Assembly: GCA_947625005.1 (NCBI GenBank)
Contig: CANQNA010000005.1
Coordinates: 1 to 25,424 of the forward strand
DNA: 25,424 nucleotides
Source: an uncultured Bacilli bacterium
GTDB lineage: Bacteria; Bacillota_I; Bacilli_A; RF39; UBA660
Direction: 5' to 3'
Part shown: one piece after another, positions 245 to 22,821 of the stretch
Layout of the letters: every line of letters begins with the position of its first letter
How positions within the stretch are numbered: position 1 is the stretch's first letter
Made by a program: the position numbers and the translations under genes
The notes under the pieces: model-generated
Told to the model about the DNA's origin: nothing
Database searches by the model: none
Seen by the model: the letters and a program-made list of their open reading frames with translations, nothing else

Positions 245-1414
245 TTATCGTTCCTCCAAATAATTTATTAACCATTGATAATCGTCAAAGAAACCATAAT
301 ATCTAGCTTCTTCATAATCTTTAGTTGTAGTAATAAATTTTTCTTTAGCTTCTTCAAAAACACATTTAGCTTTTTCATATTCACCAATCCAACAATAAGC
401 AACAGCCTTAATATGAAGTGGACGCCAAGTATAATTATAATCTAATTCTGTCCAATTATAATATCTAATTGTATTTTTTTCAGCTTTTTCTAATATATCT
501 AAAGATTCTTTACCTCTCCCTTGATAAGCTAAAAAAGTAGCGTAATTAAGGTAAGAATCTTTTATAGTTTTATCTTTTTCAATAGCTAGTTTATAAAAAT
601 AATCTGCCTCATTATTTAAATTATTAGCTTCTAAAATTTTAGCTATATATGTTGCAAAAGTCCAAGCTAAACCTCCATAGGGGTCTTTCATATAACCCTA
701 CAATGCGGCGGTTAAGCCCTTCAAATCTTTTGGATTATAAGCAACATATTCACGCACTAAATATATTAGTCCATTTAAATCTTCTGGAGCTTCTTTAACT
801 CTTATCTCCAACAGTGGTAAATATTGTGCTCTTGATTTAGTTTTATCTGGATAATGATGTAAATAAACAATTTCTGGATTTAAATCATATTCACCCTCAT
901 AATGGTATTTATCTGGTTCAACATTTTCACTGCATTCATGAACTGCGGCTTTGTATCTAAAACCGCCTTGTGGATGTACTTTATTATACCAGAATACACG
1001 CCCATTATCTCCATTATCATTATGATTCCAAGCATACAAATAATTTATTCTTTCAAAATTAGGGTGTTTTAATATAGTTAATCTTAAATCTTCCCAAAAC
1101 TGCGGAATGAGCACTTCGTCCAAGTCGACTTGAACAAGAGCATTATAAGTATCTTTTGGCATCATATCCAAATTATCATTTCTAGCTATATCAAACCTAA
1201 AAAATTTATATTTTTTCTTTTTTATATGTAACCAATTTTTAGGTATATTTAATTTTTTTATTGTCTTTTTAAATTGTTTAATTGTATCATCTGTAGAGCC
1301 AGTGTCTAATACATATGCGGAATCCGCACCTTTTCCATTATTATACATTGATGTTATCCACCGCTCTACAAATTGACTTTCATTTTTGCAAATTGTATAA
1401 ACAGCTATTTTCAT
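245..1414 (-). CDS. Family 2 glycosyltransferase with C-terminal helical-repeat domain, read through one in-frame TAG
   Basis: This is a 389-residue protein if the TAG at 700-698 is decoded as an amino acid (codon 239). The N-terminal 230 residues are a GT-A fold glycosyltransferase: CKNE near residue 9, DTGSTDDT at 37-44, and a DxD-type metal/sugar-nucleotide motif DLD at 97-99. Past the TAG the same frame continues with Q-G-Y-M into about 148 residues of TPR-like helical pairs (for example EADYFYKLAIEKD and ESLDILEKAEKN). That is the usual companion domain of this GT2 subgroup, so the part after the TAG is not a separate gene. It lies 35 bases after the fibre gene, with an AAGGAG site before its ATG. 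The operon position suggests it glycosylates the fibre or modifies the host surface. The sugar and acceptor are unknown. A strict standard-code reading would split it into 238 and 148 residues. Confidence 0.85.
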
Positions 1415-1449
1415 AAAAACTCCTTTTATCTCCTATTATATATATTTAT

Positions 1450-4400
1450 TTAACTAACTTTTATAGTTGCAAGCTTATTATGAAGAAGAGTATATTCTGC
1501 TTCACTTAATATTAAAGTGCCTGCAACAGGTTGTCCATTTGCAAAATAGACTGGCTGATTAGTTGAACCTGCTGAACTTTGTAATTTAGTAGCTGATGTA
1601 GCATTTCCATTTAAAGAGCCTGTAATTGCACCGGTCATAGTTCCACCTGCTAATGGAAGATATTTCTTTTTTATATCTGCAATCTCTGTGTCCTGAGAAG
1701 TATTCTTTGTTTCAACCGCTGAAATTTTGTTATTTTGAGTTGTTTGTTCTGTTTGTAATGCGGTTATAGCATCTGCATTTTTCTTTTCTGCTGCAGATGC
1801 CCTTGTTTGCTCGGCTGTTATAGAAGATTTTAAAGTATCTTCAACTTCTTGAGCTCTGGTTTGTTCAGCTGTTATTGCAGTTTCATTAGCTTTTTCTGCT
1901 TTAGTAGCTCTCGTTATCTCTGCTGCAATACTATCTTCTAAATCCTGTTCAGCACCCTCAGCTCTACTCTTTTCAGTAGCAATAGCAGTTGAATTAGCTT
2001 GTTCAGCCTTAGTTGCTCTAACGACTTCCGCATCTAATTTATCTTGTAACCCTTTTTCTGCGGTTGTTGCTCTAGTTTGTTCAGTAGAAATAGCCGTTGC
2101 ATTTGTTTGTTCTGCACCTTTAGCTCTAGCAATTTCATCTTGTAAAGCTTTATCTTGTTCAGAATTTTTAGCATCTAAGTCAGTTTTATTATCTGTAACA
2201 GTTTTAGTTAAACTTGCTATATCATTTTTATTTTTAGTTATAGCAGAGTTCATTGAAGCAGCTTCATCTTGATGGTCATTTATCCAATCAGAAATCTCTT
2301 TTAATGTATCAAGACTTGATGGAGCACCATTTACTATTTCAGCAATTTTATCTGCAACAGTTTTACTTACTGAACCTTCACCTATTCCATTTAATATATC
2401 AATAGCATCTTGAGCCTTATCAACAGCAGTAGTTAATACATCTTCTGCTTGTGTAGCTCTAGTTGTTTCTTGATTTATTAAGGTTATATTAGCGGTTTCA
2501 GCGGCCGTAGCTCTAGCTATTTCCTTCTCTAAGTCAGATGTGAGAGTACCTTCAGCACCTTCCGCCCTAGCAATTTCCGCAGCTAATCCATCTTCTAATT
2601 CTTTCTCTTTAGCTTTTGCTCTTTCTGCCTCCGCAGTAATAGCATCACTATTTGCTTTTTCAGCCTTTTGCGCTCTATCTACTTCAGTATTTAAATTAGA
2701 TTCAATTTCATTTTCTCTATCTGTTGCTCTAGTAACTTCATTAGATATTGCAGTTGTATTAGCTTTTTCTGCCTTGGTAGCTCTATCTATCTCCGCATTA
2801 AGATTAGTTGTAAGAGCACTCTCAGCATCTTCAGCTCTTGTTATTTCTTCATTTAAGCTAGTGGTAAGATTACTTTCAGCTTCTTGAGCTCTTTGAATTT
2901 CAGAATCTAATTTGTTATCTATTTCATCTTCTCTAGTAGTAGCTCTTGTTATTTCAGCTTTTAAAGCTGTATCTATTTCAGTTTCTTGTGCTTTAGCCCT
3001 TGCTATTTCATCATTTAAATTCTGTTCTATATCTTCTTCTTTTTGGGTAGCCCTTGATATTTCAGAATTTAAATTATTTTCAATTTCATTTTCTTTATTT
3101 TTTGCTCTATCTATTTCTGTATTTAAATTATCCTCAATTGTTTTTTCTTTTAAAGTAGCTCTATTTATTTCTGTATTTAAATTGTTTTCAATATCTTCTT
3201 CTTTTTGTATAGCTCTTGCGGTTTCATCTGCTAAATCTTGAACTATCGCATTTTCTGCGACAGTTGCTCTATCTACTTCTTTCTCTAAATTTTCAGTTAA
3301 AGTAGTTTCTGCTGTAGTTGCTCTATCTATTTCTTTAGTTATCTTATCATCTAAAGTATTATATTGCTTTTCTGCATCTGTTATTTGTAAATATTTATCT
3401 TCAAGACTAACATTATTCTCTCTTAATTCAGTAGCATCAACATAAGAAAAACCCTCTATATTTTGAGAACCAGAGCCAAGAATAGTAGTAGAATTTATTG
3501 TTAGTTGATTATTATCACTATCTTTGGCGGTAAAATTATTTATACCAACTGTAGAGCTATTTCCATCATTATCTTCAACAATTATTCTAGGTTTATTATC
3601 TGCTACATTTATTATAGCTCTACCTGCTTCTTCATCCTCTAAAGAAATTTCATCTGCGGATACAGTAGCTACATAATTAGTTCCATCACCGACCGCACTT
3701 AAAGTAGTATTTACTAAATCTATACCATCATTAAGATTTTCTTTATCTTCAACAACATTTAATTTATGTGCTGTTGTTTCTCCGTTGAGATAAGTTTCGC
3801 CCTCAAAATCATTTCTTTCAGTAAAAACATTATCAAAATCTACTTTTGCATATCTAGCATCAATAGATTCACCATCTAATGTAAATTCTTGTGCTTCTAT
3901 TGTTCCCGCAAAATTAGCATTAGTTCCAGTTATATCATCTGTAAAAGTGTTTTCACCAGTAAATGTATTAGGAGAATTTAATCTTGCATATTTTTCTTCG
4001 AGAGTTTCACCATTTTCTGTAAAAGTAGTTGATTCTATATTAGCAAAATTTGTAATTGTAGATTGGTCTGCGGTTCCTGTTAAACCGCTTGAATCTAAAG
4101 TTACAGTGTTATCATTATTATTTACAGTAATTGTATCTCCATCAATAATTGTTGTTTGACCATTTTTATTTATAGTAGTTTTTCCATTTACTGTAAGATT
4201 ATTAGTAATATTAACATCTTTTCCAAAATCTGCGGTATCATTTACAGTTAATTTACCTTGATTAATAGTATCTTTATTAACTGTCAAATTAGATTCAATA
4301 GTTGTATCATCATGAAAAATTGCTTGACCAGTAACTTCTAATTCATTATTTAAATTAGTTATTCCATCAACAGATAAACTACCATTTATCTCAACATCTT

Positions 4401-4704
4401 GTGTAAAGTTATTATTAGCTGTAAATATGTTTGGTTGACTAAGACGAGCATAATCTCTTAAATCAACAGATGTTTCTCCAATACAAGCCCATTCACCATT
4501 TATAAGGAGGTATTCTTCATACTTATCATTACCATATACATCTTCTTTTTTCAAGAGATATAAAGTATGGTCGTTAGCTTCTTCTGGAGGTGGAAGAACA
4601 TCTACAAGCTCTTTGCTTAAATGTAATTGATTTGCGTTATATATTTGTTTATCTGTCTACCTTCTAGCTAAAGCTAAGGTTACAACATCTACGCCTCCAC
4701 TCAT
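1450..4704 (-). CDS. Long coiled-coil tail fibre / receptor-binding protein (one in-frame TAG)
   Basis: This is a 1084-residue protein. I chose the ATG at 4704-4702 because a strong AGGAGGTG site precedes it and the frame stays open except for one TAG at 4659-4657 (codon 16, ...LALARR-TAG-TDKQIY...). The alternative is a TTG at 4554 without a good ribosome site. The N-terminal third has beta-rich repeats of the LTVNGKTTI / GSLSVDG type, which suggest a beta-helical or triple-beta shaft. The middle has two blocks, 17 and 7 copies, of an 18-residue helical repeat with pattern (L/I)xxE(I/V)xRAxxxE. A linker of the phage-fibre type (LDTLKEISDWINDHQ) separates the blocks. The C-terminus carries YLPLAGGTMTGAITGSLNGN, a motif seen near the ends of many phage tail fibres. 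It is probably a trimeric side or tail fibre. No chaperone or peptidase domain was seen. Confidence 0.9.
1768..2145 (-). repeat. Seven 54-bp repeat units in the fibre gene (block 2)
   Basis: Seven consecutive 18-codon units with the pattern (L/I)xxExxRAxxxE (LQDEIARAKGAEQTNATA is the first). The DNA copies are diverged, so the repeat is old or kept at protein level. Eighteen residues equal five alpha-helical turns, or one heptad plus one hendecad, which is compatible with a nearly straight coiled coil. Confidence 0.85.
2425..3342 (-). repeat. Seventeen 54-bp repeat units in the fibre gene (block 1)
   Basis: Exactly 918 bases, or 17 units of 18 codons, from ITKEIDRATTAETTLTEN to INQETTRATQAEDVLTTA. 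The invariant core is E-x-x-R-A followed four residues later by E. There are no gaps between units, and the block ends just before the LDTLKEI linker that separates it from the second block. Copy number could change by unequal recombination and so set the shaft length. Confidence 0.88.
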
Positions 4705-5047: not shown

Positions 5048-6061
5048 ATGATTCAAGAAAGTTTGCAATCCTATTATGATTTTTTAACAACAGACAAATT
5101 TGCTGAACTAGAATTATTAGGTGTTTTTGCTTATGGTAGTATGAATTATGGATATTATAAAGAAGGCGTAAGTGATATAGATGCTTATGTCATTATTTTT
5201 CCTAAATTTAAAACACTATATTTTAACAATAAAATAAATAAAGAATATCAAATAAATAAAAATAATAAGTTATTTTTTCTTGATATACGTTCTTTTGTAG
5301 AAGATATTATATCACAAAAAATGAGTGCTTTACAATTACTTTATACAGATTATAAAGTTATCAATCCTAAATATGAAGAAGCTTTTAAAGAAATATTTTA
5401 TAATCATCGTAATAAATATACAAAAATAAATCCTAAATCACTTGTTATGCGGTTAATAGGTCATGGAATTTATCACCTAGAAAAAAAGGAACGAACCGCA
5501 AAAGATATATATAATGGAGTTAGACTTCTCAATTCCGCATTAGATTATATTAATGGTTTACCATTTGAGGAAGTCTTGTGTACAAAAAACATAAATACTC
5601 ATAATTGGTTATATGATATTAAATATAATAAAAAGAAAGAAGAAGAATTAGATAAAATTGCCAAAACAACTCTTGAACAATTAAAAAAATTGCAAGAAAC
5701 TGTTTTAAACAATAGTAATTTATTACCTATAGAAGAATCAAATGCAACTATTCAATTTATACAAGATGAAGTATTTAATTTAATAAAGTCAAATGTTACT
5801 AAAGAACTGTCTAATAAAACTATTACTGCCTCTGAATTTCTTGATTCTCTTACTATGTTAGAGAAAAAGGCTTTTGAATCTGTTAAAACTAAAATTGGAA
5901 CTTGCGGGGGAGTTTCTATTAGTAAATTAATTGAAGAAACTGGTATATCAAGAACCGTTTATTCTTCTTTATTTAATAAAATGACAAAAGCAGAAGTAGC
6001 AGAAATAACTAATGGTGGGGTAAAAGGAACTTATATTAAAATAGTAATTCCATCTTTATAA
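5048..6061 (+). CDS. Pol-beta-type nucleotidyltransferase fused to a CodY-like winged helix
   Basis: This is a 337-residue protein. Residues 28-50 carry the nucleotidyltransferase signature: AYGS at 28-31 and, 11 residues further on, the metal-binding pair D43-x-D45 in SDIDAYVI. The fold resembles the COG3541 predicted nucleotidyltransferases found in many large phages. Residues 283-337 read like the C-terminal winged helix of the Firmicutes regulator CodY: VSISKLIEETGISRTVYSS matches the CodY VASKIADRVGITRSVIVNA element, and GGVKGTYIKI matches LGMKGTYIKV. I infer a nucleotide-transfer enzyme directed to DNA or host regulatory sites by this domain. The substrate is unknown. It has its own promoter, a TAA stop, and no terminator before the next gene. 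Confidence 0.75.
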   Translation: MIQESLQSYYDFLTTDKFAELELLGVFAYGSMNYGYYKEGVSDIDAYVIIFPKFKTLYFNNKINKEYQINKNNKLFFLDIRSFVEDIISQKMSALQLLYTDYKVINPKYEEAFKEIFYNHRNKYTKINPKSLVMRLIGHGIYHLEKKERTAKDIYNGVRLLNSALDYINGLPFEEVLCTKNINTHNWLYDIKYNKKKEEELDKIAKTTLEQLKKLQETVLNNSNLLPIEESNATIQFIQDEVFNLIKSNVTKELSNKTITASEFLDSLTMLEKKAFESVKTKIGTCGGVSISKLIEETGISRTVYSSLFNKMTKAEVAEITNGGVKGTYIKIVIPSL

Positions 6062-6081
6062 TATGGGTAAGACAGATTAAC

Positions 6082-6119
6082 TCCTCCTTTTGTTTTTTAA
6101 TATTTTAACGAAGGGAGGA
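6082..6119 (+). promoter_or_regulatory. Hairpin that could sequester the ribosome site of the next gene
   Basis: TCCTCCTTT (6082-6090) is complementary, with one G-U pair, to AAGGGAGGA (6111-6119), which contains the Shine-Dalgarno of the gene starting at 6128. The loop is about 20 bases and T-rich. The first arm looks like a built-in anti-Shine-Dalgarno, so translation may be off unless the hairpin is opened. No ligand-binding fold was seen. Confidence 0.45.
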
Positions 6120-6127
6120 ATTATTAT

Positions 6128-6559
6128 ATGATTGAGCTATTTCAAGCTTATTCTCTAACAGAAATATTAGCTATTGTTATTACTTTGGCATTAGCTTTTA
6201 AAGGATTGGTTTCTTTTATAGATTGGTATACTGATAGAATAAAAAAAATAGCTATAAAAACAGAATTACCCAAAAAAAATCAAGATACAATAGCTGATTT
6301 AAAAGAAGAACTTGATGAATTAAAAGATTCTGTTTTTCTTTTGATTGAATCTGATAAAGATAATATAAAATCATATATTACTGAAAGGCACCATTATTTT
6401 TGTTATGAGAAAAAATATATTGATGACTTTAGTTTAGAATGTTTAGAAAGACGTTTTGAACATTATAAACAGGAAAAGGGCAATTCATTTATTACAGATT
6501 TTATGAATGATTTGCGGGCGTTGCCTAATACTCCTCCAGAAAACTTAGATAAAGGCTGA
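6128..6559 (+). CDS. Small membrane protein with N-terminal transmembrane helix and coiled coil
   Basis: This is a 143-residue protein. Residues about 12-33 (EILAIVITLALAFKGLVSFI) form one hydrophobic helix, followed by a Lys/Arg-rich stretch and a predicted coiled coil (TIADLKEELDELKDSV). The rest is charged and soluble, so the likely topology is N-terminal anchor with a cytoplasmic tail. It could be a holin-like or a membrane-tethering protein, but no family was recognised. The TGA stop lies inside the stem of a terminator, so the gene ends its transcript. Confidence 0.7.
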   Translation: MIELFQAYSLTEILAIVITLALAFKGLVSFIDWYTDRIKKIAIKTELPKKNQDTIADLKEELDELKDSVFLLIESDKDNIKSYITERHHYFCYEKKYIDDFSLECLERRFEHYKQEKGNSFITDFMNDLRALPNTPPENLDKG

Positions 6560-6586
6560 CTAAAAAATCAGCCTTTATTTTTTTTT
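6551..6586 (+). terminator. Rho-independent terminator after the small membrane protein
   Basis: Perfect 9-bp stem AAAGGCTGA (6551-6559) / TCAGCCTTT (6568-6576) with an 8-base loop, then ATTTTTTTTT. The TGA stop codon of the upstream gene is part of the stem. Confidence 0.9.
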
Positions 6587-6594
6587 AAAAATTT

Positions 6595-6602
6595 GTTATA
6601 AT
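6595..6602 (+). promoter_or_regulatory. Extended-10 promoter for the RNA ligase unit
   Basis: TG-T-TATAAT with TATAAT at 6597-6602 follows the terminator T-tract directly. The -35 position (TTTATT, 6574-6579) overlaps the terminator and is weak. Confidence 0.6.
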
Positions 6603-6637
6603 AATTATAGAAAATAAAGAAAGGAGAAATAAATAAT

Positions 6638-6742
6638 ATGACAAAGAATATGTATGAACTTTATATGCAAGCTTATGCTGAAGACCCAGATAATGGATAC
6701 TTTGCTATAATTAAAGTTGCTACAGGTGGGGAGGAATATTAA
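6638..6742 (+). CDS. Leader-like small protein before the RNA ligase
   Basis: A 34-residue reading frame (MTKNMYELYMQAYAEDPDNG...GGEEY) with an AAAGGAG site upstream. Its TAA directly touches the ATG of the RNA ligase, and the ligase ribosome site (GGGGAGG) is inside its last codons. This indicates translational coupling. No family was recognised. It could act mainly as a translated leader. Confidence 0.6.
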   Translation: MTKNMYELYMQAYAEDPDNGYFAIIKVATGGEEY

Positions 6743-7933
6743 ATGTTAAATCCAAAGACAGGTAAAAGAGAATTAGCTTATATTGTTGAAATTGCAGAAA
6801 TTCGTCCGCTAGAAGGTTATGATAGAGTTGAATATGCAAGAGTAAATGGCTGGTGGTGTGTAATAGGCAAAGGAATGAAAGTTGGAGATAAAGCTATTTA
6901 TTTTGAAATAGATTCTCAAGTAAATCCTTTAGATAAAAGATTTGCTTTTATGTCCAAGAGAAAATATAGAGTAAAGACACAGAAAATGTGCAAAGTAGTT
7001 TCTCAAGGACTCGTATTACCTTTAACTGATTTTCCAGAATTTGCAGATAAAAATGTGGGCGATTTTGTTACAGAAGAGTTGGGTGTTACTTACTATGAAC
7101 CTGCGGATAATCAGAGAAAATCTAATATAGATAAATACTCTTCTATGATAAACCGCAAACCAAAAGTATTTAAAAACAAGTTTGTTAAGAAAATTATGAA
7201 ATACTCTTGGGGTAGAGAAATGATGTTCTTCTTTTTTGGAAAGAAAAAAGATAAGAAAACCGCATTTCCTACTAAGTTTCCTTATATAAAGAAAACAGAC
7301 GAAGAAAGAGTAGAAAATATGCCTTGGATATTGAAAGATAAATCTCTTTGGGTAAAAACAACAAAAATAGATGGTACCTCTTGTACTTATATTCTTGAAA
7401 GAAAGCCTTTTGGTAGAAGAGAATTTTATGTATGTTCTCGCAATATAAGACAGCTTACGCCCAATCAGTCTTGCTTCTTTGATGACGACAATGTCTATTG
7501 GGAGATAGAAGAGAAATATCATATTAGAGAAACTCTTGAAACTCTCCTTAAAGAACACCCAGAGTGGAAATATGTAGCTATTCAGGGTGAAGGCGCAGGT
7601 GTTACAGAAGCTGGAACTGCTATACAAGGAAACCCCCATAAATTTAATACATTAAGATTTTTTGTGTTTAATTTAATAGATTCTGAAAATGGAAGATGGG
7701 ATACTACAAGAGGTCGTGAAGAACTTAAGAGATTTAATGTTGACTGGGTACCAATCATTGATACAGAATATATACTCCTAGATGATTTTGAAGAATTTAA
7801 GAAAACCGCAGATGGACCTTGCGAAGCGAATGGGGCAACAGGACCAAGAGAAGGATATGTATACAGAAATGTAGCAGACCCTAACAAATCTTTTAAAAAT
7901 GTTAGCAGAAAATACCTGCTTGGTCAGAAATAA
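6743..7933 (+). CDS. RNA ligase with N-terminal OB-like domain
   Basis: This is a 396-residue ATP-dependent RNA ligase. The adenylated lysine is probably K208 in motif I, TKIDGTS. Other nucleotidyltransferase motifs are the acidic AIQGEG motif, EGYVYR (motif IV) and SFKNVSRKYL (motif V). The N-terminal 120 residues (AYIVEIAEIRPLEGYDRVEYARV, WWCVIGKG, VGDKAIYFEIDSQV) resemble the OB-like module that precedes the ligase domain in the Deinococcus DRB0094 family, which seals RNA 3'-OH/5'-phosphate nicks. Its likely role is repair of cleaved tRNA or other RNA during infection. The kinase and phosphoesterase about 1.2-1.7 kb downstream would supply the end-healing steps. Confidence 0.88.
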   Translation: MLNPKTGKRELAYIVEIAEIRPLEGYDRVEYARVNGWWCVIGKGMKVGDKAIYFEIDSQVNPLDKRFAFMSKRKYRVKTQKMCKVVSQGLVLPLTDFPEFADKNVGDFVTEELGVTYYEPADNQRKSNIDKYSSMINRKPKVFKNKFVKKIMKYSWGREMMFFFFGKKKDKKTAFPTKFPYIKKTDEERVENMPWILKDKSLWVKTTKIDGTSCTYILERKPFGRREFYVCSRNIRQLTPNQSCFFDDDNVYWEIEEKYHIRETLETLLKEHPEWKYVAIQGEGAGVTEAGTAIQGNPHKFNTLRFFVFNLIDSENGRWDTTRGREELKRFNVDWVPIIDTEYILLDDFEEFKKTADGPCEANGATGPREGYVYRNVADPNKSFKNVSRKYLLGQK

Positions 7934-7997
7934 TTAAATTTATTAAAATTAAACGCATATATAAAAATGTGTAATTTTAAGGAGGTGAATATTAAAA

Positions 7998-8225
7998 ATG
8001 ACAAAAACAATTAGCATAAAAATTAATCTTGTTGCTGATGTTATGAAATTTGTTCAAGAAGCAGCAAAAATTGAAGGACAGGTTATAGTAGAAAGAGATA
8101 TTTATAAAGTAGATGGTAAATCTCTTTTAGGAGTAATGTCTATTAATCCATCTAAGCGGTTTTCAGTTACTTTTCCCGCAGAAAACACAAAAAGTTTTGA
8201 AGATTTTTTACTTACACTTTATTAA
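7998..8225 (+). CDS. HPr/Crh-like protein lacking the active-site histidine
   Basis: This is a 75-residue protein with an AAGGAGGTG ribosome site. Aligned by eye to HPr, the helix 1 segment VMKFVQEAAK corresponds to TMLVQTASK of Bacillus HPr, and VDGKSLLGVMSI corresponds to the segment LKSIMGVMSL around Ser46. The HPr catalytic His15 position is Leu11, and the conserved Arg17-Pro18 are absent, so it cannot carry PTS phosphate on His. The regulatory Ser46 equivalent is kept (Ser42). This is the pattern of Crh, the CcpA co-regulator that also lacks His15, and of small HPr-like proteins in Clostridia. I infer a possible effect on host carbon-catabolite control or HPr kinase. It sits between RNA ligase and lysin with no promoter of its own that I can see. 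Confidence 0.7.
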   Translation: MTKTISIKINLVADVMKFVQEAAKIEGQVIVERDIYKVDGKSLLGVMSINPSKRFSVTFPAENTKSFEDFLLTLY

Positions 8226-8245
8226 GAAAGGAAGATATTAAACAT

Positions 8246-8695
8246 ATGAGAAAGATAAATTTGTTTATCTGTGTAATTCTCACACTTATGCCGTTGTGCT
8301 TCGGCACAACACCAACATATGCGTCAGATTTAAATCCAGATACACTATTATTAGCAAAACTTATAAATGCGGAAGCAGGAGAAGGCTGTTCAATAGAGCA
8401 TAACCAACTCGTTGGCTGTGTTGTAATGAACAGAGTAAAAGATTCTCGATTCCCAAATACAATTAGTGAAGTTATTTATCAAAAAAATCAATATTCCTCT
8501 GTTTAGGGTAAGAAATTTAGTGCATATCCTTCTCAAATAGCTATAGATGCTGCAACCGCAGTACTAAATAATGAAGTAAGTTGTCCATCAAATGTTATTT
8601 TTCAATCTACTTGTAAACAAGGTAATGGTACTTATAAAGTATGTGAAATGAGTACCCCTTGGTATCATTCTACAACTTACTTTTGTTACGGTTAA
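8246..8695 (+). CDS. SleB/CwlJ-type cell wall hydrolase with signal peptide (one in-frame TAG)
   Basis: This is a 149-residue protein if the TAG at 8504-8506 (codon 87) is read as sense. A lipobox-free signal peptide fits residues 1-26 (basic MRK, hydrophobic core, TYAS). The mature part begins with LLAKLINAEAGEG, the Hydrolase_2 (SleB) motif with Glu43 as probable catalytic acid, then CVVMNRVKDSRFPNTISEVIYQKNQYSSV up to the TAG. After it the same frame continues GKKFSAYPSQIAIDAATAVL and ends with TAA, matching the length and C-terminal part of the family. The TAG therefore does not mark the end of the domain. The protein would cleave the glycan of peptidoglycan. Export by signal peptide distinguishes it from the amidase at 11825. 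Confidence 0.88.
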
Positions 8696-8710
8696 TATAT
8701 TTATAATAAG

Positions 8711-8745
8711 AAAGTTACTATTTATTAGTAACTTTTTTCTTTTTA
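8711..8745 (+). terminator. Rho-independent terminator after the SleB-like gene
   Basis: AAAGTTACTA (8711-8720) / TAGTAACTTT (8726-8735), a 10-bp perfect stem with a five-base loop, then TTTCTTTTT. It lies 16 bases after the TAA at 8693-8695, which supports reading the gene through the TAG. Confidence 0.9.
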
Positions 8746-8755
8746 TAAAAAAATT

Positions 8756-8764
8756 TGTTATAAT
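8756..8764 (+). promoter_or_regulatory. Extended-10 promoter for the zinc protein/kinase/phosphoesterase unit
   Basis: TG-T-TATAAT with TATAAT at 8759-8764, preceded by AAAAAAATTT. No good -35 box, since the terminator T-tract occupies that position. Confidence 0.6.
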
Positions 8765-8794
8765 AAAGTATAAAGAAATAAAGGAGGAATAAAA

Positions 8795-9662: not shown

Positions 9663-9666
9663 AATA

Positions 9667-14662: not shown

Positions 14663-15129
14663 AGACGTAAAATATTAAAAATATTTGAATAATACTTGCC
14701 TCTACATCTCTAACCACTAATCAGTGGGGTCATATTAATGTGGCTAACGGGGAAACCTGACCGTTACACATGAATGTCAAAACATGTTTAGGCGAAGGTA
14801 ATCCCGTGTGAATTGTTAATCTAAAATTATAAACGTGGACAAAAGTATATAAATGTCCAAGTAAAAGAAATAAGAAACTCTTATCAAAAAGGGATTATAA
14901 GCTATAGAGAATTAGGTGAAAAATATGGTGTATCTGAAAATACTATAACTAGAATAATAAAGAGAGAAACTTATAAAAATGTAGATTAACTCATGTATCG
15001 ACTATCCCGGGTTAGACTGGGAGTACTGGTGCTATTGATACGCACTGGGAAATGGGATGCTCAATGAAGAGTTTGACAAACTCTGAGAGTAAAAGATAGT
15101 CAGTCCTTATAGAAATATAAGACAAGATG
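14663..15129 (+). mobile_element. Group I intron 1 (467 nt) in topoisomerase B
   Basis: The 5' exon end GAGGT pairs with an internal guide GCCTC at 14698-14702, leaving the required U-G at the splice site. The last base is G. Core elements: P4-P6 region about 14712-14757 (CTAATCAGTGGGG ... GGCTAACGGGG), P7 strands GACTAT (15000-15005) and ATAGTC (15096-15101), and a final hairpin CTTATA-GAAA-TATAAG (15106-15121) with a GNRA loop. Splicing restores VRG-KILNTQRA, as in GyrB LRGKILNVEKA. Its core is close in sequence to the other three introns. It carries only a remnant of a homing-endonuclease DNA-binding domain. Confidence 0.92.
14824..14989 (+). pseudogene. Remnant of homing-endonuclease HTH domain in intron 1
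   Basis: One frame reads VQVKEIRNSYQKG followed by SYRELGEKYGVSENTITRII and a KNVD end, the C-terminal helix-turn-helix found in phage HNH and GIY-YIG homing endonucleases. There is no start codon, no nuclease domain and no ribosome site in front of it; the frame opens after a TAA. It is best read as what is left after loss of a homing endonuclease. Confidence 0.65.
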
Positions 15130-15299
15130 AAGATTCTTAATACGCAAAGAGCAACTTTAGAAAAAATCCAAAAAAATGCAGAAATTATGACAATGATAAA
15201 AGCTTTTGGTTTAACTATTGATCCAAAGACAATGACAGTTACTTATGAGCCAGAAGACTTGCGTTATGGCAAAATTATAATCATGAGTGATGCAGACGT
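15130..15299 (+). CDS. Topoisomerase subunit B, exon 2 of 4
   Basis: 170 bases in phase after intron 1, encoding KILNTQRATLEKIQKNAE and on to KIIIMSDADV, the second part of TOPRIM. It ends within the codon just before the last Asp of the catalytic D-x-D-x-D (DADVDG), with GT as the first two bases of a Val codon. Intron 2 therefore splits the metal-binding motif, and without splicing the enzyme has no active TOPRIM. Confidence 0.92.
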
Positions 15300-16144
15300 C
15301 AACTTATCGGCGTATGAAAGACTTTTCGCTTAATCAAGCGGGTGCATCTTATTAAGATGTGCTAACGGGGAAGCCTAAACTCAATAGAGCATGGTAATCA
15401 CCGTGGGAAACATTTATTCTTTTACTTCCCTCACGAGGGAGGTGTTTTGTACTTGTTTTGTGTTTATAAAATAATAAATAAGATAAATAAAAAAGCTTAT
15501 ATAGGAATAACAAAAAGAGATCCTAAAATAAGGATGCAAGAACATTTCTCTAATAAGAATGAACTTTTAGGCAAGGCTAAAGAAAAATATGGCAGAGAAA
15601 ATTTTATATTAGAAATATTAGAAAATAATATTTCAGAAAATCAAATAGATGACAAAGAAAGATATTATATTAAACTATATGATACTTTAGCTCCGAAAGG
15701 TTATAATCTTTCTCAAGGAGGAATATCTAATAAAACCATTTCTCTAGAGGGAAAGAAAAAGTTAAAAGAATGTAACCTTGGTATAAAGAATCCTAAATGC
15801 CATAAATACATTTTAATGATGGATGAAAAGAATGAAAAAATTATCCAAAAATTTGGAAGTATTAGAGAAGCAGCAAGATTTTTAGGAAATGAAGAAAGAT
15901 ATAGAAATCTTATTTTCTTATCGTTTAAAAGGAAAAAATAAAATTTTTAAAGGTTATTTTTGGAAGTATGAAGAATAAATGAACCTGTATCGACTATTCC
16001 CTAAGCCTTCTGGGCAGGGAAGTAGGGTTGCTATTGATACGCAGCTGTGTTTTAGGTAACGAAGCACATGAAAACCGAAACGGGCTCCTCTCTAATTAGA
16101 GAGTAAAAGATAGTCAGTGCTTATGGAAACATAAGAATAACATG
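15300..16144 (+). mobile_element. Group I intron 2 (845 nt) with GIY-YIG endonuclease gene
   Basis: The 5' exon end ACGT pairs with GCGT just downstream (15310-15313) as a short P1 with U-G at the site. The last base is G, and splicing gives DADV-DGAHIKNLFY. Core elements: CTTAATCAAGCGGG ... GTGCTAACGGGG about 15332-15372, P7 strands GACTAT (15992-15997) and ATAGTC (16110-16115), and terminal hairpin CTTATG-GAAA-CATAAG (16120-16135). The endonuclease gene is inserted between the P4-P6 region and P7. Confidence 0.92.
15453..15941 (+). CDS. GIY-YIG homing endonuclease of intron 2, C-terminus frameshifted
   Basis: The GIY-YIG nuclease domain begins at once: VYKIINKINKKAYIGITK, with the GIY equivalent VYK and the YIG motif YIG, then R (DPKIRMQEH) and the catalytic Glu in DKERYYIK. 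A NUMOD1-like DNA-binding segment (FGSIREAARFLG) follows. The frame ends in TAA at 15939-15941 with a meaningless tail. The +1 frame continues LKGKNKIFKGYFWKYEE to a TAA at 15976-15978, the expected end of a NUMOD1 module. I infer a one-base indel near 15905-15925. I chose the TTG at 15453, ten bases after GGGAGG. A TTG at 15447 is too close. Confidence 0.85.
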   Translation: MFCVYKIINKINKKAYIGITKRDPKIRMQEHFSNKNELLGKAKEKYGRENFILEILENNISENQIDDKERYYIKLYDTLAPKGYNLSQGGISNKTISLEGKKKLKECNLGIKNPKCHKYILMMDEKNEKIIQKFGSIREAARFLGNEERYRNLIFLSFKRKK

Positions 16145-16359
16145 CGATGGCGCTCATATCAAGAACCTATTTTACACCTTTATCTGGAACTTTTGCCCAG
16201 AACTAATTAAAGATGGATATATTTATGCAGGGGTTCCACCACTGTATAAACTTACTATTGATAAAGATACTTATAAATATATAAAGAACGATGAAGAATT
16301 ACAAAAATGGAAGAAAGAAAATCCAAATAAAAAATTTATAGTAAATAGGTTGAAAGGGT
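16145..16359 (+). CDS. Topoisomerase subunit B, exon 3 of 4
   Basis: 215 bases encoding DGAHIKNLFYTFIWNFCPE through GYIYAGVPPLYKLT to FIVNRLKG, the end of TOPRIM and the region before the conserved RYKGLGEM motif. The last base, T, is the first base of a Leu codon completed by TA of exon 4. No ribosome site or start codon exists for independent translation. Confidence 0.92.
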
Positions 16360-16627
16360 ACGAGTTAGTCTGGCCCTTAGCTACTTTTCCGCTAATCAGC
16401 GGGGTTGTATTAAAAAATACAGCTAACGAGGGAGTCTTGTTGGAAGATGGTCTCGTGGGAAAATATTATAACTATATAATATAAACCTGTATCGACTATC
16501 CACATTGTTGTGGAGTACAATTACTATTGATACGTAATTGGAAAAGGTAGCACCCAATGACGGCAATTAAACCTTTAGCCAGAGGGTAAGAAATAGTCAG
16601 TGCCAATGGTGACATTGGAGTAACACG
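16360..16627 (+). mobile_element. Group I intron 3 (268 nt), no reading frame
   Basis: The 5' exon end AAGGGT pairs with the guide GCCCTT (16373-16378) with U-G at the site. The last base is G, and splicing restores LKG-LGEMSVEE, matching the family motif KGLGEM. Core: CTAATCAGCGGGG ... GCTAACGAGGG about 16391-16433, P7 strands GACTAT (16494-16499) and ATAGTC (16593-16598), terminal hairpin CCAATG-GTGA-CATTGG (16603-16618). It is a minimal intron that must rely on other endonucleases or vertical descent. Confidence 0.93.
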
Positions 16628-16818
16628 TAGGAGAAATGTCAGTTGAAGAAACTGAGGAAACATTAACTAATCCTAATAATAGAATTATTAAACAAATAAC
16701 AGTTGAAGATACTAAAGAAACAGATATATTATTTGAACAATTAATGGGGAATGATATAACAGCAAGAAAACAATATATTAAACTACATTCACAGGAGGCG
16801 AAATATAATGCAGAATAA
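16628..16818 (+). CDS. Topoisomerase subunit B, exon 4 of 4
   Basis: 191 bases encoding the C-terminus: LGEMSVEETEETLTNP, the QITVEDTKETDILFEQLMG segment and QYIKLHSQEAKYNAE, ending in TAA at 16816-16818. These match the C-terminal end of ParE/GyrB proteins. An ATG at 16636 in this exon is the Met of GLGEM and is not a start. Confidence 0.92.
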
Positions 16819-17053
16819 TGCAATTTTATGTCCAAATTGTAAAAAAGAAATTTTTTATTGTTATGATGAATGGGGTTGTACTCCTATTCATCTTCATTGT
16901 CGTGAATGTGGTATAAATATTGGAGCAACAAGCTTTGAAAAAAGTAATGAATTATTAAAAAAATATCATAAAAAGGAAACTTATATAGAATATTATAATA
17001 ATAAAATTCAATTCTTATCTGAAGAAGGGAGAATTGTAATAAATGCAGAATGA
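16808..17053 (+). CDS. Small zinc-ribbon protein between the topoisomerase genes
   Basis: This is an 81-residue protein overlapping the end of subunit B by 11 bases, with a GGAGGCG site. It has CPNCKKE near residue 8 and HCRECGIN near residue 30, a Cys4 zinc ribbon. The ending TGA overlaps the ATG of subunit A (17043), so all three genes are translationally coupled. It could help assemble or target the topoisomerase. It also resembles the small phage Lar-like zinc proteins, but only in the Cys pattern. Confidence 0.7.
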   Translation: MQNNAILCPNCKKEIFYCYDEWGCTPIHLHCRECGINIGATSFEKSNELLKKYHKKETYIEYYNNKIQFLSEEGRIVINAE

Positions 17054-19364
17054 AGTTAAACAAGAATTAGGCATTAATTTTATTGAATATGCGGTTGCTT
17101 GTAATACAGATAGAGCTATTCCTGATTCTAAAACGGGATTAAAACCTGTTGCAAAAAGAATACTTTGGTCTGCCTATGAAGAAGGTAGAACTTCAAACAA
17201 GCCTCATGTGAAATCAGCTCGCATTGTGGGAGATGTAATGGGTGGATATCATCCTCACGGCAATAGTTCAATCTATGGCGCGATGGTAAGACTTTCTCAG
17301 TCTTGGGTTATGAGGTATCCTCTGATAGACTGGCATGGAAATAATGGAAATATTGCAGGAGATGGACCTGCAGCCGAGCGCTATACGGAAGCAAGACTTA
17401 GCAAAATAGCGGAATTGGGATTACTTGAAGGCATAAAGAAAAGAAATGTAGATTTTATTCCTAACTATTCTGAAGATAGTGAAGAACCAGTTACTTTGCC
17501 TTCTATTTTTCCTAATTTACTTTGTAATCCAAACATGGGAATAGGAGTTGCCACAGCTTGTTGTTGGCTGCCCCATAATTTAAATGAGGTAGCTCAAGCA
17601 ATTTATGATTATTTAGATGGAAAAGAACCTATCCTTGCAGGTCCAGATTTTCCAACTGGTGGTATTATTATAAATAAGAATGATATTCCTCAAATAATGA
17701 AAACTGGACACGGAAGTGTAAAAATTCGTGGTCAATATAATATAGAAAATAAAAAGAATATTGTTTTTTATGAAATTCCATATGGAACAACTATTGAAAA
17801 TCTTTTAAATGAAATTGGAAATGCTTGTGATAAAAAAGAAATAGAAGGTATTTCTGAAATAAGAGATGAAAGTAATAAAAATGGTATTAGAATAGTAATA
17901 CAGTGTCAAAAAGAAAATGAAATATCCTCTATAATTAATAAATTATTTGAAAAAACAAATTTACAATCTTCTATTTCTTATAATCAAGTTGCTTTAATTG
18001 ATAAAACACCTACAGAATTAAATTTAAAAGATTGTATTGAAATATATATAAATCACAATGAAGAATGTTTAATTAAAGAAGCTAATTTTGATTTAAATAA
18101 AATTGAAAGTAGAATAGAGATTGTAACAGGTTTATTAAAAGCTTTAGAAAATATTGATAATATAGTTAATTTAATAAAAAAATCTTCTAATTCTTTAATA
18201 GCAAAAGAAAGCTTAATTAAAAAATATAATTTTTCAGAAAATCAGGCTAAAGCTATCATTGATATGAAATTAGGTAGATTGGCTGGATTAGAAAAAATAG
18301 AATTAGAAAATGAATATAAATCTTTACAAGATAGAAAAAAAGATTTAACATTTGTTTTAACAAACAAAGAAAAAAGATTAGAAATCATTAAAGAAAGATT
18401 AAAAAACATTGTTTCTATTTTTGGAGATCCCCGTAGAACTCAATTAACTCAATTAGACCTCACTTCTTCTTTAAAGGAAGAAAAAAAAACAGAAAATGTA
18501 ATAGTAACAATAACAACTAATAATGAAATAACTAGAACCGCAACAGACTCTCTAAAGGTGCAGAGCAAAAGAGGTAAAGGAATAAAAAATAAAAATCAAA
18601 AACCTTTACTAACAACAATATCAACTAATACTAGTGAATCTATATTTTTATTTACATCAAAAGGTAAAATGTTCCGCTTAGAAGTAGATAAAATATCTGC
18701 AGATTCTATTGAAAACATTAACTCTCTAATTAAATTAGATGATGAAGAAAAAGTCATTGCCGCCACTACTAATAAAACAAATAAATATGTTGTATTTGTA
18801 ACAAAAAAAGGTCTTATCAAGAAAACCGCTATAGAGGAGTATCAATCTTCAAGAAAAAATAGTGGAATTATAGCTATAAAATTTAAAGATGAAGATAGCT
18901 TAGTTAATGTTCATTTTATGAACGAAGAAGAAATGATTGTTTTAACCAAACAAGGAATGATAATTCATTTTGAAACAAAAAATATAAAATCAATAGGAAG
19001 AGCTACAAGCGGTGTTAGAGGAATAAAATTAATTGAAAATGATGAAGTAATTGCGGGATTACCTATTTTTAAGAAAGATAATAATTATTTCTTAGTTACT
19101 TTTGATAAAGAAGGTATTGTTAAAAAGACAAGTATAGATGAATATCCTCTTCAAAATAGAGATGGTAAGGGGTTAAAATATAATACAAATGGTAATGAAT
19201 TAGTTTGTGCGGTTTTTGCTACAAACACAGATAAATTATTAATAATAGGTGATAAGCGTTCTATGTATATTAGCGTTGAGGAGTTATCTTTAGGTAAAAG
19301 AACTAACCTTGGAACAAAAGTAATAAAAGATGGAATAATAGAAACAGCAATAGCAGTACAATAA
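17043..19364 (+). CDS. Type II DNA topoisomerase subunit A (GyrA/ParC-like)
   Basis: This is a 773-residue, uninterrupted protein. The breakage-reunion domain shows RAIPDSKTGLKPVAKRILW, GGYHPHGNSSIYGAMVRLSQ, and the catalytic Tyr114 in AAERYTEARL. The GyrA-box-containing beta-pinwheel region follows from about residue 480 (for example SLKVQSKRGKGIKNK, SKGKMFRL, TKKGLIKKT and TKQGMIIHF), so it has a DNA-wrapping-type C-terminal domain. It ends in TAA. In contrast to subunit B it has no intron. Gyrase versus topoisomerase IV activity cannot be settled here. No clear QRRGGKG box was seen (a weak counterpart is QSKRGKG), which favours ParC-like relaxation or decatenation. Confidence 0.93.
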   Translation: MQNEVKQELGINFIEYAVACNTDRAIPDSKTGLKPVAKRILWSAYEEGRTSNKPHVKSARIVGDVMGGYHPHGNSSIYGAMVRLSQSWVMRYPLIDWHGNNGNIAGDGPAAERYTEARLSKIAELGLLEGIKKRNVDFIPNYSEDSEEPVTLPSIFPNLLCNPNMGIGVATACCWLPHNLNEVAQAIYDYLDGKEPILAGPDFPTGGIIINKNDIPQIMKTGHGSVKIRGQYNIENKKNIVFYEIPYGTTIENLLNEIGNACDKKEIEGISEIRDESNKNGIRIVIQCQKENEISSIINKLFEKTNLQSSISYNQVALIDKTPTELNLKDCIEIYINHNEECLIKEANFDLNKIESRIEIVTGLLKALENIDNIVNLIKKSSNSLIAKESLIKKYNFSENQAKAIIDMKLGRLAGLEKIELENEYKSLQDRKKDLTFVLTNKEKRLEIIKERLKNIVSIFGDPRRTQLTQLDLTSSLKEEKKTENVIVTITTNNEITRTATDSLKVQSKRGKGIKNKNQKPLLTTISTNTSESIFLFTSKGKMFRLEVDKISADSIENINSLIKLDDEEKVIAATTNKTNKYVVFVTKKGLIKKTAIEEYQSSRKNSGIIAIKFKDEDSLVNVHFMNEEEMIVLTKQGMIIHFETKNIKSIGRATSGVRGIKLIENDEVIAGLPIFKKDNNYFLVTFDKEGIVKKTSIDEYPLQNRDGKGLKYNTNGNELVCAVFATNTDKLLIIGDKRSMYISVEELSLGKRTNLGTKVIKDGIIETAIAVQ

Positions 19365-19378: not shown

Positions 19379-21337
19379 ATGGATATAAAAAGTACAATAG
19401 ATTTATTAAATAAAGCTACAGAAGAATATGATAAAGGTACTCCTATTATATCTGATAAAACGTGGGATAATTTATATTTTGAGCTAGAGGAAGAGGAAAA
19501 CCGCACTAATGTGCGGCTCCCTAATTCTCCAACACAAAGGATTCATTATAATAATTTTTATATAGTTGATGAATTAAAGAAAATACCTAATGACCCGCCA
19601 ATGCTATCTTTATCTAAAACAAAAGATATAGATGACTTAGTTTCTTTCTGTAAAGTTGCAAACACTATTGCTATGTTAAAAATGGATGGCTTAAGTTGTA
19701 GGCTTATTTATAAGGATGGAAAATTAGCAACCGCCGCAACAAGAGGCAATGGAACAATAGGAGAAGATATTACTCATAATGCTATAAAAATACCTTCAAT
19801 TCCTCTTACTATTGATGACAAAAGTGATGAAGTAATAATAGACGGAGAAATAATATGTACTTATAAAGATTTTAAAGAGTTTGAAGATAAATATATTCAT
19901 CCAAGAAACTTTGCTGCGGGAAGTATAAGATTACTTGATAATAAAGAATGTGCTAATAGAAAGCTTACTTTTGTTGCTTGGGATTTAATCAATAGTGATT
20001 TAATTTTTACAGATAAAATGAAATATATTCAAGACATATCTAATGATACTATGTTTACTGTACCTTATTTAGTAACAAATAAAGATACTATTGAAAAAGA
20101 TATTGCAGAATTAACACAAAAAGCATTTGGGTGCTCTTATCCTATTGATGGATTAGTGTTTAGATATAATAATACAGCTTTTGGACGTTCGTTAGGTAAT
20201 ACCGCCCATCATCCTAAACATAGTATAGCATACAAATTTTATGATGATTTGTTTACAACTCATTTAATAGATATTGATTGGACTATGGGGCGGACTGGGG
20301 TACTGACCCCAACCGCAGTATTTGATGAAGTTATTATTGATAATACAAGTGTCACAAGAGCTTCTCTTCACAATGTATCTATGATGAAAGAGATATTAAA
20401 AGATAACCCTTATAAAGGACAAGAGATACAAGTATTTAAGAGTAATTCCATTATTCCTCAAGTGGCGGATTCTGTTGGATATGATGAATTAGAGAATACA
20501 AATAATACACAGTTTTTAGAAATACCAAAAGTATGCCCTATATGTTGGGGTTATGTAACTCTGGAGGAAACTGAGGGTAAAGTTGCAGAAGTATTAGTAT
20601 GCAAAAATCCAGAATGTAATGGTAAGCTAATAAATAAATTAGACCATTTCTGCTCAAAAAAAGGATTAGACATAAAAGGTTTATCAAAAGCTACTTTAGA
20701 AAAACTTATAGATGCAGGTTTTATTAACTCTATTGTTGATATTTTTAATTTATCTAGCCATGCAAAAGAATGGGAATCTATGGTTGGTTTTGGTAAAAAA
20801 TCAGTTAATAATATTTTAAGTGCAATTGAAGAGAGAAAGAATAACACTTCTCTTGAAACTTTTATTGCAGGATTAGGTATTCCGGGTATTGGTATTACTG
20901 TTACAAAAAAATTAATAGAATATATAGATTCATATGAAGATTTTAGAGATAAAATAAAAAATAATTATACTTTTTATAAAATTCCTACTTTTGGATTAGT
21001 TACTCATATGAATATAATAAAATTTAATTATACTGAAGCAGATGAACTTGCTAAAATAATAAACATTGTAAATCCTATTGTAGAAAAAGATAATAATAGT
21101 TTATTTAAAGATAAAGTATTTGTTATTACGGGTAAATTAACTACATATAAAAATAGAGATGAACTAAAAGATTTTATAGAGCGGAATGGTGGTAAAGTGA
21201 CAAATTCTGTCACTAAAAATACAAATTATCTTATAAATAATGATATAGATTCTAATAGTACAAAAAATAAAACCGCCAAGAAACTTAATGTAGAAATAAT
21301 TTCTGAAGAGCAATTTAAAAAAATATTTGATTTATAA
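19379..21337 (+). CDS. ligA: NAD+-dependent DNA ligase
   Basis: This is a 652-residue protein of normal LigA length and domain order. The NAD-binding Ia region is short (YDKGTPIISDKTWDNLYFEL). The adenylated lysine is K101 in LKMDGLS. Other signs are ATRGNGTIGEDITHN, the OB region, a Cys4 zinc finger (CPIC ... CKNPEC), helix-hairpin-helix repeats (GLGIPGIGITVTKKL) and a C-terminal BRCT domain (FKDKVFVITGKLTTYKNRDE onward). The usual KxDGxA motif has Ser after Leu (KMDGLS). The gene starts 14 bases after subunit A with an AAGGAG site, so it is in the same operon and would seal replication nicks. Two strong GC-rich hairpins lie inside the gene. Confidence 0.95.
   Translation: MDIKSTIDLLNKATEEYDKGTPIISDKTWDNLYFELEEEENRTNVRLPNSPTQRIHYNNFYIVDELKKIPNDPPMLSLSKTKDIDDLVSFCKVANTIAMLKMDGLSCRLIYKDGKLATAATRGNGTIGEDITHNAIKIPSIPLTIDDKSDEVIIDGEIICTYKDFKEFEDKYIHPRNFAAGSIRLLDNKECANRKLTFVAWDLINSDLIFTDKMKYIQDISNDTMFTVPYLVTNKDTIEKDIAELTQKAFGCSYPIDGLVFRYNNTAFGRSLGNTAHHPKHSIAYKFYDDLFTTHLIDIDWTMGRTGVLTPTAVFDEVIIDNTSVTRASLHNVSMMKEILKDNPYKGQEIQVFKSNSIIPQVADSVGYDELENTNNTQFLEIPKVCPICWGYVTLEETEGKVAEVLVCKNPECNGKLINKLDHFCSKKGLDIKGLSKATLEKLIDAGFINSIVDIFNLSSHAKEWESMVGFGKKSVNNILSAIEERKNNTSLETFIAGLGIPGIGITVTKKLIEYIDSYEDFRDKIKNNYTFYKIPTFGLVTHMNIIKFNYTEADELAKIINIVNPIVEKDNNSLFKDKVFVITGKLTTYKNRDELKDFIERNGGKVTNSVTKNTNYLINNDIDSNSTKNKTAKKLNVEIISEEQFKKIFDL
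19501..19516 (+). repeat. Perfect inverted repeat inside ligA
   Basis: CCGCAC-TAAT-GTGCGG, a 6-bp GC-rich stem with a tetraloop in an otherwise AT-rich gene. Both arms carry the CCGC/GCGG tetramer that is enriched in this window. Confidence 0.7.
20290..20316 (+). repeat. GC-rich hairpin inside ligA
   Basis: Inner stem TGGGGT (20296-20301) / ACCCCA (20306-20311) with loop ACTG, and outer stem GCGG (20290-20293) / CCGC (20313-20316) across a small bulge. It is unusually stable for this sequence and again flanked by GCGG/CCGC. Confidence 0.65.
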
Positions 21338-21567: not shown

Positions 21568-21576
21568 ATATTGACT

Positions 21577-21605: not shown

Positions 21606-21653
21606 ATTTCTATAATAAAAAATAATAAATAAAAAATAAAGGAGAAAAATAAT

Positions 21654-21923: not shown

Positions 21924-21940
21924 TAAAATATAATATATAA

Positions 21941-21968
21941 GGGGGTAGTAAATGCTATCCCTCTTTTC
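21941..21968 (+). terminator. Putative terminator after the winged-helix gene
   Basis: GGGGGTAG (21941-21948) / CTATCCCT (21955-21962), an 8-bp stem with two G-U pairs, then CTTTTCTT. It is weaker than the other terminators. No promoter is visible before the next gene, so partial read-through is likely. Confidence 0.5.
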
Positions 21969-21996
21969 TTAACAAGAGAAGAAAGGATTTTTAAAT

Positions 21997-22821
21997 ATGA
22001 CTTTTTTAACAGTTGCTTATGTTATAATTGCGGTTGTTGTATCTATTTAGTTAGGTAAATCCGCAGTTAATTATGCAGTGTATAAAAAACAAAGAGATGA
22101 AATCCAATCTGAAATAAATAACTTAAATGTAACAAAAAAACAGTTAGATTTAGAAATAATAAATTTACGATAGGATTTAGATGAAATTCAAGTTTCATAT
22201 AATAATATTCAAAAGGTTTATCAAGGATTAACCGAGAAAAAAGAACAAATAGAATTACAAATTGCAGAGATTGAAAACGAATTTTTAGAAATAAAGAATG
22301 ATATAGCTGCAGGAACAAAAGCTAAATTAAGAGAAAGAGAAATTGCAGAGAAACGAAATTTTTATAAACTATCTGTATCACCGCAAGAGCTTGAGGATAT
22401 TCATACATTAGAACAAGTGAAAACAATGTTAAAACGTCCTGTTGTTATAAGTAAACTTATATGGAGTGAATATTTCCAAAAGCAAACAACAGACTTATGT
22501 AATAGAATAGTTGGAACAAATACTAAATGTGGTATTTATAAAATAACTAATATAAATACTGGACAATGTTATATAGGTCAAGCTACAGATATATCAAAAA
22601 GGTTTAAAGAACATATAAAATGCGGTTTGGGAATAGAGGCCTCCGCCACTAACAAACTTTATAATGCTATGCAAAAAGAAGGAGTTTATAACTTCACTTT
22701 TGAAGTGTTAGAAGAATGTAATGATAGAAATTTATTAAACCAAAAAGAATCTTTATGGATAAAGACTTTTCAATCTAATGAAATTGGATATAATAGTAAC
22801 AAGGGGATAACAAAGACGTGA
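21997..22821 (+). CDS. Membrane-anchored coiled-coil protein with C-terminal GIY-YIG nuclease (two in-frame TAGs)
   Basis: This is a 274-residue protein if TAG at 22048-22050 (codon 18) and 22171-22173 (codon 59) are sense. The N-terminus is one hydrophobic helix (MTFLTVAYVIIAVVVSI, then the first TAG), followed by a long coiled coil in which both TAGs fall without breaking the pattern (...EIINLR-TAG-DLDEIQVSYNNI). A middle segment (LEQVKTMLKRPVVISKLIW) precedes the GIY-YIG domain: CGIYKIT, CYIGQATDI, R of KRFKEH, and Glu in NQKESLWIK. The nuclease lies in a fixed gene, not in an intron. It resembles coiled-coil/GIY-YIG proteins of the DUF4041 type, possibly a membrane-associated defence or exclusion nuclease. 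It ends in TGA, overlapping the next GTG start. Confidence 0.8.

Follow-up and report, generated by a model that had tools for sequence, protein, structure and literature searches.

TAG as a probable glutamine codon in a phage sequence and its apparent second meaning, glutamate, among related viral contigs

What does the triplet TAG mean in a stretch of phage-like DNA where it repeatedly falls inside reading frames that are otherwise open? The question is raised by contig CANQNA010000005.1 of the assembly GCA_947625005.1, attributed to an uncultured Bacilli bacterium, positions 1 to 25,424 of which we hereafter call the window. The original prediction, made from the letters alone, took TAG in this phage to be a sense codon, probably for glutamine. 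Our analysis makes it very probable that the window derives from a phage using genetic code 15, wherein TAG is a sense codon read as Gln and TAA and TGA serve as stops. Further, sequence comparisons across its relatives lead us to propose, with high confidence, that the wider family gives TAG two meanings: Gln in the lineage of the window and Glu in seven or more of the related contigs.

Reading the triplets in frame bears out the presence of five in-frame TAGs distributed over four genes. The first (698-700, minus strand) is codon 239 of the 389 of a glycosyltransferase gene (phrog_13126; 245..1414, minus), and the second (4657-4659, minus) is codon 16 of the 1084 of a long repetitive gene of unknown function (phrog_13589; 1450..4704, minus), whose product we infer to be tail-fibre-like. 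The third (8504-8506, plus) is codon 87 of the 149 of a cell-wall hydrolase gene (Pfam PF07486, Hydrolase_2; 8246..8695, plus), while the remaining two (22048-22050 and 22171-22173, plus) are codons 18 and 59 of a gene for a GIY-YIG-containing protein (21997..22821, plus). None of the four holds an internal TAA or TGA over its full frame, and, as had been predicted, the genes of the window end in TAA or TGA and never in TAG. The 26 chosen frames close with 21 TAA and 5 TGA, although three of them (13322-14692, 15127-15333 and 22818-23171) are exon-like, such that their stops are not gene ends; among 13 gene ends defined by homology, 11 are TAA or TGA, two are unclear and none is TAG. This absence is weak evidence, because kin without TAG recoding rarely use TAG stops either: 7 of 46 ends in contig G018, 5 of 55 in G016 and 5 of 42 in G017, i.e., 17/143 in total, a base rate in which overlapping contig pieces could count one gene twice.

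Could the five TAGs simply be random nonsense mutations, the marks of gene decay or sequencing errors? Such a reading might draw on the window being a lone contig: a search for an exact or similar DNA copy gave no match in phage records and, at the tested site, no exact match in viral contigs. However, random nonsense in these genes would produce TAG in 18-20% of cases, and all five being TAG has a p of 1.7e-4 to 3.5e-4; the five thus differ from random nonsense (p about 2-4e-4). A Fisher test of the four genes against the rest was dropped and left unused as circular, the genes having been picked for having TAG. The protein is also conserved past the TAG, with conserved sequence on both sides in the hydrolase (55-77% identity to nine homologues before the TAG and 51-68% after it) and in the glycosyltransferase (60-65% to six relatives before and 39-55% after). 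Moreover, P0254, a protein 86-90% identical to the window hydrolase, terminates exactly at the hydrolase TAG; therefore, another phage shares a stop at that site, although its stop triplet was not seen. Hence, we regard random damage or error as the least probable of the explanations considered.

If TAG is a sense codon, which residue does it specify? The original prediction had named Gln from the sequence context, a guess that could have failed, as other family members read TAG as Glu, and had proposed that the TAG columns be aligned to homologues. That comparison returned Gln at two sites, whereas the other three do not identify the residue. The two informative sites are those of the GIY-YIG-containing protein, for which P0121, a protein matching 55% of the query at 97% identity and encoded on a 584-base public contig, shows Gln at both. 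The match runs to the motif LKRPVV, after which P0121 diverges up to its end without the GIY-YIG half; this may reflect an insertion, another ending or an assembly edge. Among the 120 listed homologues of the 2,752 found, P0121 is the only one with an aligned residue at codon 18, the other 119 having none, whereas 115 have a residue at codon 59: Gln in 54, Lys in 35, Glu in 10, Asp in 7 and others in 9. The TAG columns of the hydrolase (51 residues) and of the glycosyltransferase (45 homologues) are variable.

The genes for gyrA/topoisomerase IV subunit A (17043..19364, plus) and the NAD-dependent DNA ligase (19379..21337, plus), both free of TAG, allowed the window to be placed among its kin. 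Searching viral contigs with an alignment of the ligase recovered 215 related loci; the analysis kept the best 80, with a ligase identity of 46-52%. Against the same contigs the single gyrA protein found no match, and the hydrolase and glycosyltransferase alignments found distant kin only. Within the stretches fetched around these 80 ligase loci, gyrA was a neighbour in 72, the 21654 gene in 76, the 24783 gene in 64, gyrB in 52 and the phrog_6721 gene in 44; 77 of the 80 also match the 21997 gene, possibly through its GIY-YIG part alone. The window thus shares gyrB, gyrA, the ligase and the 21654, phrog_6721 and 24783 genes with the family, membership being judged by shared genes, with gene order not computed. 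In trees of gyrA, the ligase and two small proteins (FastTree on 80 rows, IQ-TREE on 49 of those rows), the window groups with loci L138 and L117, which lie in contigs G021 and G020 respectively (FastTree support 0.99; IQ-TREE UFBoot 100).

To establish the meaning of TAG across this family, 17 contigs of 16 to 240 kb were fetched piecewise (16 of them complete, and G012 lacking its last 545 bases). Each in-frame TAG was compared with the residues of at least two other members (35-90% identity, E <= 1e-30) in a gap-free neighbourhood with at least 5/16 identities, and the 20 residues were scored by substitution frequencies drawn from those alignments. TAG aligns best with Gln in seven contigs and with Glu in seven, the other three having too few TAGs (one in G016; seven in G017, with Leu best; none in G018). 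The Gln-type contigs, with the number of TAGs and the margin in log units over the second residue, are G011 (121, 112.3), G020 (131, 107.2, Glu being second), G021 (130, 107.1), G024 (65, 55.5), G010 (60, 43.1), G019 (36, 24.3) and G022 (10, 10.6). The Glu-type contigs, comprising the pieces L224-L232, L241-L254, L269-L275, L289 and L310-L316, are G015 (170, 88.0), G014 (153, 81.0), G006 (138, 80.0), G013 (119, 50.6), G005 (80, 26.4), G012 (34, 13.8) and G008 (11, 4.6). The division is sharpest in near-invariant columns, i.e., those with at least five other members and one residue in at least 90% of them, homologous columns recurring between contigs so that not all are independent. At these, the TAGs of Glu-type G005, G006 and G012-G015 face Glu in 87 of 90 columns (the rest being one Asp, one Trp and one Tyr, with no Gln), and those of Gln-type G010, G011, G020, G021 and G024 face Gln in 89 of 97 (Glu in two, others in six).

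Several further lines of evidence bear on this division. As a control, eight sense codons (CAA, CAG, GAA, GAG, AAG, TAC, TCA and TGG) put through the test in 12 contigs returned the right residue in 96/96 cases, the control being not fully independent as the substitution table came from the same alignments. Composition agrees: relative to members taken, by their coding coverage, as free of TAG recoding, the TAG genes of Glu-type G006 are lower in Glu (0.062 vs 0.086) and less so in Gln (0.039 vs 0.047), with TAG at 0.028. Those of Gln-type G020 (Gln 0.030 vs 0.048, Glu 0.073 vs 0.082, TAG 0.025) and G011 (Gln 0.028 vs 0.038, Glu 0.074 vs 0.082, TAG 0.015) show the opposite emphasis. Thus, the Glu deficit in Glu-type TAG genes is close to the TAG frequency, with a smaller Gln deficit, whereas in the Gln-type the Gln deficit proportionally exceeds that of Glu. 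Treating TAG as sense also raises the coding coverage in many contigs, most strongly in some regions (from 0.13 to 0.95 in L280, from 0.22 to 0.94 in L306 of G021 and from 0.19 to 0.95 in L314), with no marked rise in G018. PHROG profiles, which come from outside the family, gain 34.9 bits in sum over five Gln-type proteins when TAG is translated as Q, but only 4.3 bits over five Glu-type proteins when it is translated as E, two of these five slightly preferring Q; the outside profiles, like the tRNA similarities given below, appear to back Glu only faintly. At Glu-type TAGs the per-site margin of Glu over Gln (0.33-0.58) falls short of the margin that GAG has over its runner-up in the same six contigs (0.72-0.82), and some TAGs may hence stand for other residues or be read in a mixed way there. 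Nor is the division wholly clean: short loci in the Glu-type part of the FastTree tree lean slightly towards Gln, namely L169 (21 TAGs, margin 3.2), L168 (5, 3.0), L122 (9, 2.8), L120 (19, 0.9), L161 (10, 0.6) and L177 (5, 0.5).

One recurrent position merits separate mention. Many of the TAG-to-Glu columns fall at position 67 of the phrog_6721 gene, beside the site of an intron in the window; as the frame is continuous there in the Glu-type contigs (e.g., PLYWWK-TAG-FDTYK), the position was kept, and the wider test does not depend on it. Two TAGs at positions 36 and 61 of the phrog_6721 gene of L125, which seem to lie in intron-like sequence, were not taken as evidence, and Pfam gave no support to a thyX label for this gene. 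In the trees, the Glu-type contigs lie near a group with the standard code and near L182, a Gln-type contig, in part with weak support (57-67), which is compatible with one origin or several.

Given the abundance of the Glu-type in the family (7/17 contigs), might TAG in the window itself also be read as Glu? Three of its five sites fail to separate the two residues: the preference for Gln over Glu is only 0.2-0.3 log units at the hydrolase and glycosyltransferase sites, as against 1.0 at codon 59, and no homologue spans the TAG of the phrog_13589 gene. These are among the observations that weigh against reading TAG as Gln in the window, as are two further ones: the automatic column test had just two window TAGs to score, one of which probably lies in a shadow frame, and gave Tyr as best; and P0121 is a protein record with its DNA unseen, so that a source rendering TAG as Gln in its translations would look no different. 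On the last point, the window's own entries in the same protein database (P0001 and P0244), and apparently P0254 too, are cut at TAG, which argues against the Gln of P0121 being a translated TAG. Alignment with Glu, for its part, was not borne out at the two informative window TAGs, in view of the 54 Gln against 10 Glu of 115 at codon 59 and the Gln of P0121 at both sites. Further, the two nearest relatives, G020 and G021, with which the window is grouped at a bootstrap of 100, are both Gln-type. We accordingly favor Gln, as was predicted, on the strength of P0121 (2/5 sites) and these two relatives, and consider a Glu reading in the window quite unlikely.

A different objection is that TAG might still be a stop, with leaky readthrough in a naturally amber-suppressing host yielding short and long products of the four genes. 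Consistent with this, TAG is rare in the window (5, against 167 CAA and 35 CAG, i.e., 202 Gln codons, among the 7,148 codons of 25 gene frames), and the glycosyltransferase gene has an ATG three codons past its TAG. Moreover, the lack of any tRNA in the window, noted in the original prediction, is upheld by both ARAGORN and Rfam. Two further observations weigh against the Gln reading itself. ARAGORN finds no tRNA with a CTA anticodon in the nearest relatives, G020 and G021. Contigs L033 and L034, from rabbit-gut assemblies, have the hydrolase and little else in common with the window; reading TAG as sense improves their coding little, and they have frames ending in TAG. These phage-like contigs lie in assemblies titled as Clostridia bacteria, with isolates named Lapin. 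Against leaky readthrough, the hydrolase and phrog_13589 genes offer no nearby restart: the next possible start of the former is 48 codons past its TAG, and the first of the latter 35 codons past, while a Faecalibacterium phage protein matches the phrog_13589 product from residue 28 onward, ahead of that start (E 1e-6). The relatives, moreover, hold many TAGs in their terminase, portal and RecJ genes, and their homology-defined genes rarely end in TAG (0/44 in G006, 0/37 in G010, 2/52 in G020 and 1/58 in G021; Glu-type G014 has 5/73). The scarcity of TAG in the window is explained by most of its genes being of kinds that are low in TAG in the relatives too: across the 80 ligase loci, the 164,000 aligned residues of proteins homologous to those of the window include 39 TAGs, with none in L138 or L117, while the structural genes of relatives are rich in TAG. 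We thus deem leaky readthrough improbable, somewhat more so than a Glu reading.

Under the favored reading, namely TAG as a sense codon for Gln, the window would be part of a large phage from a lineage that turned TAG from stop to sense. The decoder would be a suppressor tRNA with a CUA anticodon, probably encoded elsewhere on the phage genome and charged by the host; upon accumulating, at a time that we can only surmise, it would outcompete release factor 1 and allow Gln to be inserted at all five TAGs. Candidate decoders occur in the family, ARAGORN predicting CTA tRNAs in three of the seven Gln-type contigs (G010, G011 and G022) and in Glu-type G013, G014 and G015. It finds none in the other 11 of the 17 contigs, G024 as well as G020 and G021 among them, and no tRNA of any kind in five (G005, G006, G008, G019 and G020); a pattern search for a CTA anticodon arm in eight contigs without a CTA tRNA, run without a positive control, likewise gave no match. 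Judged by eye, the CTA tRNAs of the three Glu-type contigs have similar acceptor stems. In alignments, the tRNAs of G013 and G014 score nearest to tRNA-Glu (26.0 vs 13.0 for Gln, and 25.0 vs 9.0); that of G015 is nearest to Lys (25.5; Gln 25.0, Glu 20.0). Among the Gln-type, the CTA tRNA of G010 is nearest to Trp (31.5; Gln 21.0, Glu 14.5), that of G011 to Gln (15.5; Glu 14.5) and that of G022 to an odd tRNA (25.0; Glu 21.0, Gln 17.5). A predicted tRNA with a TTA anticodon (L252:12622-12696) stands alongside the CTA tRNA in G013. Separately, G016, G017 and G024 have tRNAs with a TCA anticodon; in G016 and G017 (L255-L268) the coverage of some pieces goes up with TGA as sense, and in these two it is apparently TGA instead of TAG that serves as a sense codon.

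Other genes of the window also appear to be interrupted. The gyrB gene (13322-16818) appears broken into three or more pieces (13322-14692, about 15127-15333 and about 16636-16818), with a GIY-YIG endonuclease gene (15447-15941) between them, suggesting two introns; a search of the window with Rfam gave no match to a group I intron. The phrog_6721 gene (22818-24742) likewise seems divided, with a GIY-YIG endonuclease gene (23248-24189) between its two parts; these match nearly adjacent stretches in L034. The region 5048-10221 holds genes for a nucleotidyltransferase-like protein (5048-6061), an RNA ligase (6743-7933) and a polynucleotide kinase-like protein (9165-9662), which could be involved in tRNA repair or upkeep.

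How does this family compare with known recoding systems? TAG as Gln was shown by peptides in two crAss-like phages (PMC9523058) and inferred in other phages (PMC7886860, PMC10607447, PMC13037316, PMC11210395). Yutin et al. further describe a genome that has recently acquired a TAG suppressor and is beginning to accumulate TAGs (PMC7886860). The code-15 crAss-like phages resemble the present ones in having TAG as sense with Gln as best residue, TAA and TGA as stops, a concentration of TAG in late or structural genes, and genes interrupted by endonuclease genes (PMC9523058, PMC7886860); they differ in that two of them have peptide proof, whereas here the case is one of sequence comparison, the likeness being one of features. 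The same type of likeness extends to phAss-1 of the proposed Phassvirus, representing gut phages without cultured members, of about 136 kb, which carry a tRNA-Sup-CTA and have TAG in 41 genes (PMC10607447). The Lak megaphages also have TAG as Gln and a CTA suppressor, but have genomes of about 540 kb and Prevotella hosts; their authors note that some TAG positions align with Glu, yet deduce Gln for much of the clade (PMC8346664), unlike the six contigs here with Glu in nearly all near-invariant columns and Gln in none. No Glu reading is added by what was seen of PMC7162821, PMC12386605 and PMC8629427. Among the papers listed by our literature searches, none asserts a Glu meaning of TAG for phages in its title or opening abstract. 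In some ciliate nuclear codes, UAA and UAG specify Glu. These are alike in the meaning of UAG but belong to eukaryotic nuclear genomes, whereas the phages here keep TAA as a stop. Thus, while the window is apparently an ordinary member of code 15, the TAG=Glu type of its family is apparently undescribed.

By itself, then, the window adds one more code-15 phage, and it is the family that matters more. If our reading is true, a genetic code in which TAG is Glu while TAA and TGA remain stops would be new for phages. Annotation limited to the Gln meaning of TAG would place Gln at many Glu positions, altering the charge of conserved sites. With Gln-type, Glu-type, apparently TGA-type and standard members standing so close together, the steps of codon reassignment would become testable, in terms of: (i) whether the suppressor tRNA was swapped first; (ii) whether there was a phase of codon disuse; (iii) how the host synthetases come to choose between Glu and Gln. 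The family would thereby document how, in nature, a stop codon turned to sense can switch from one amino acid to another, perhaps via the exchange of suppressor tRNAs.

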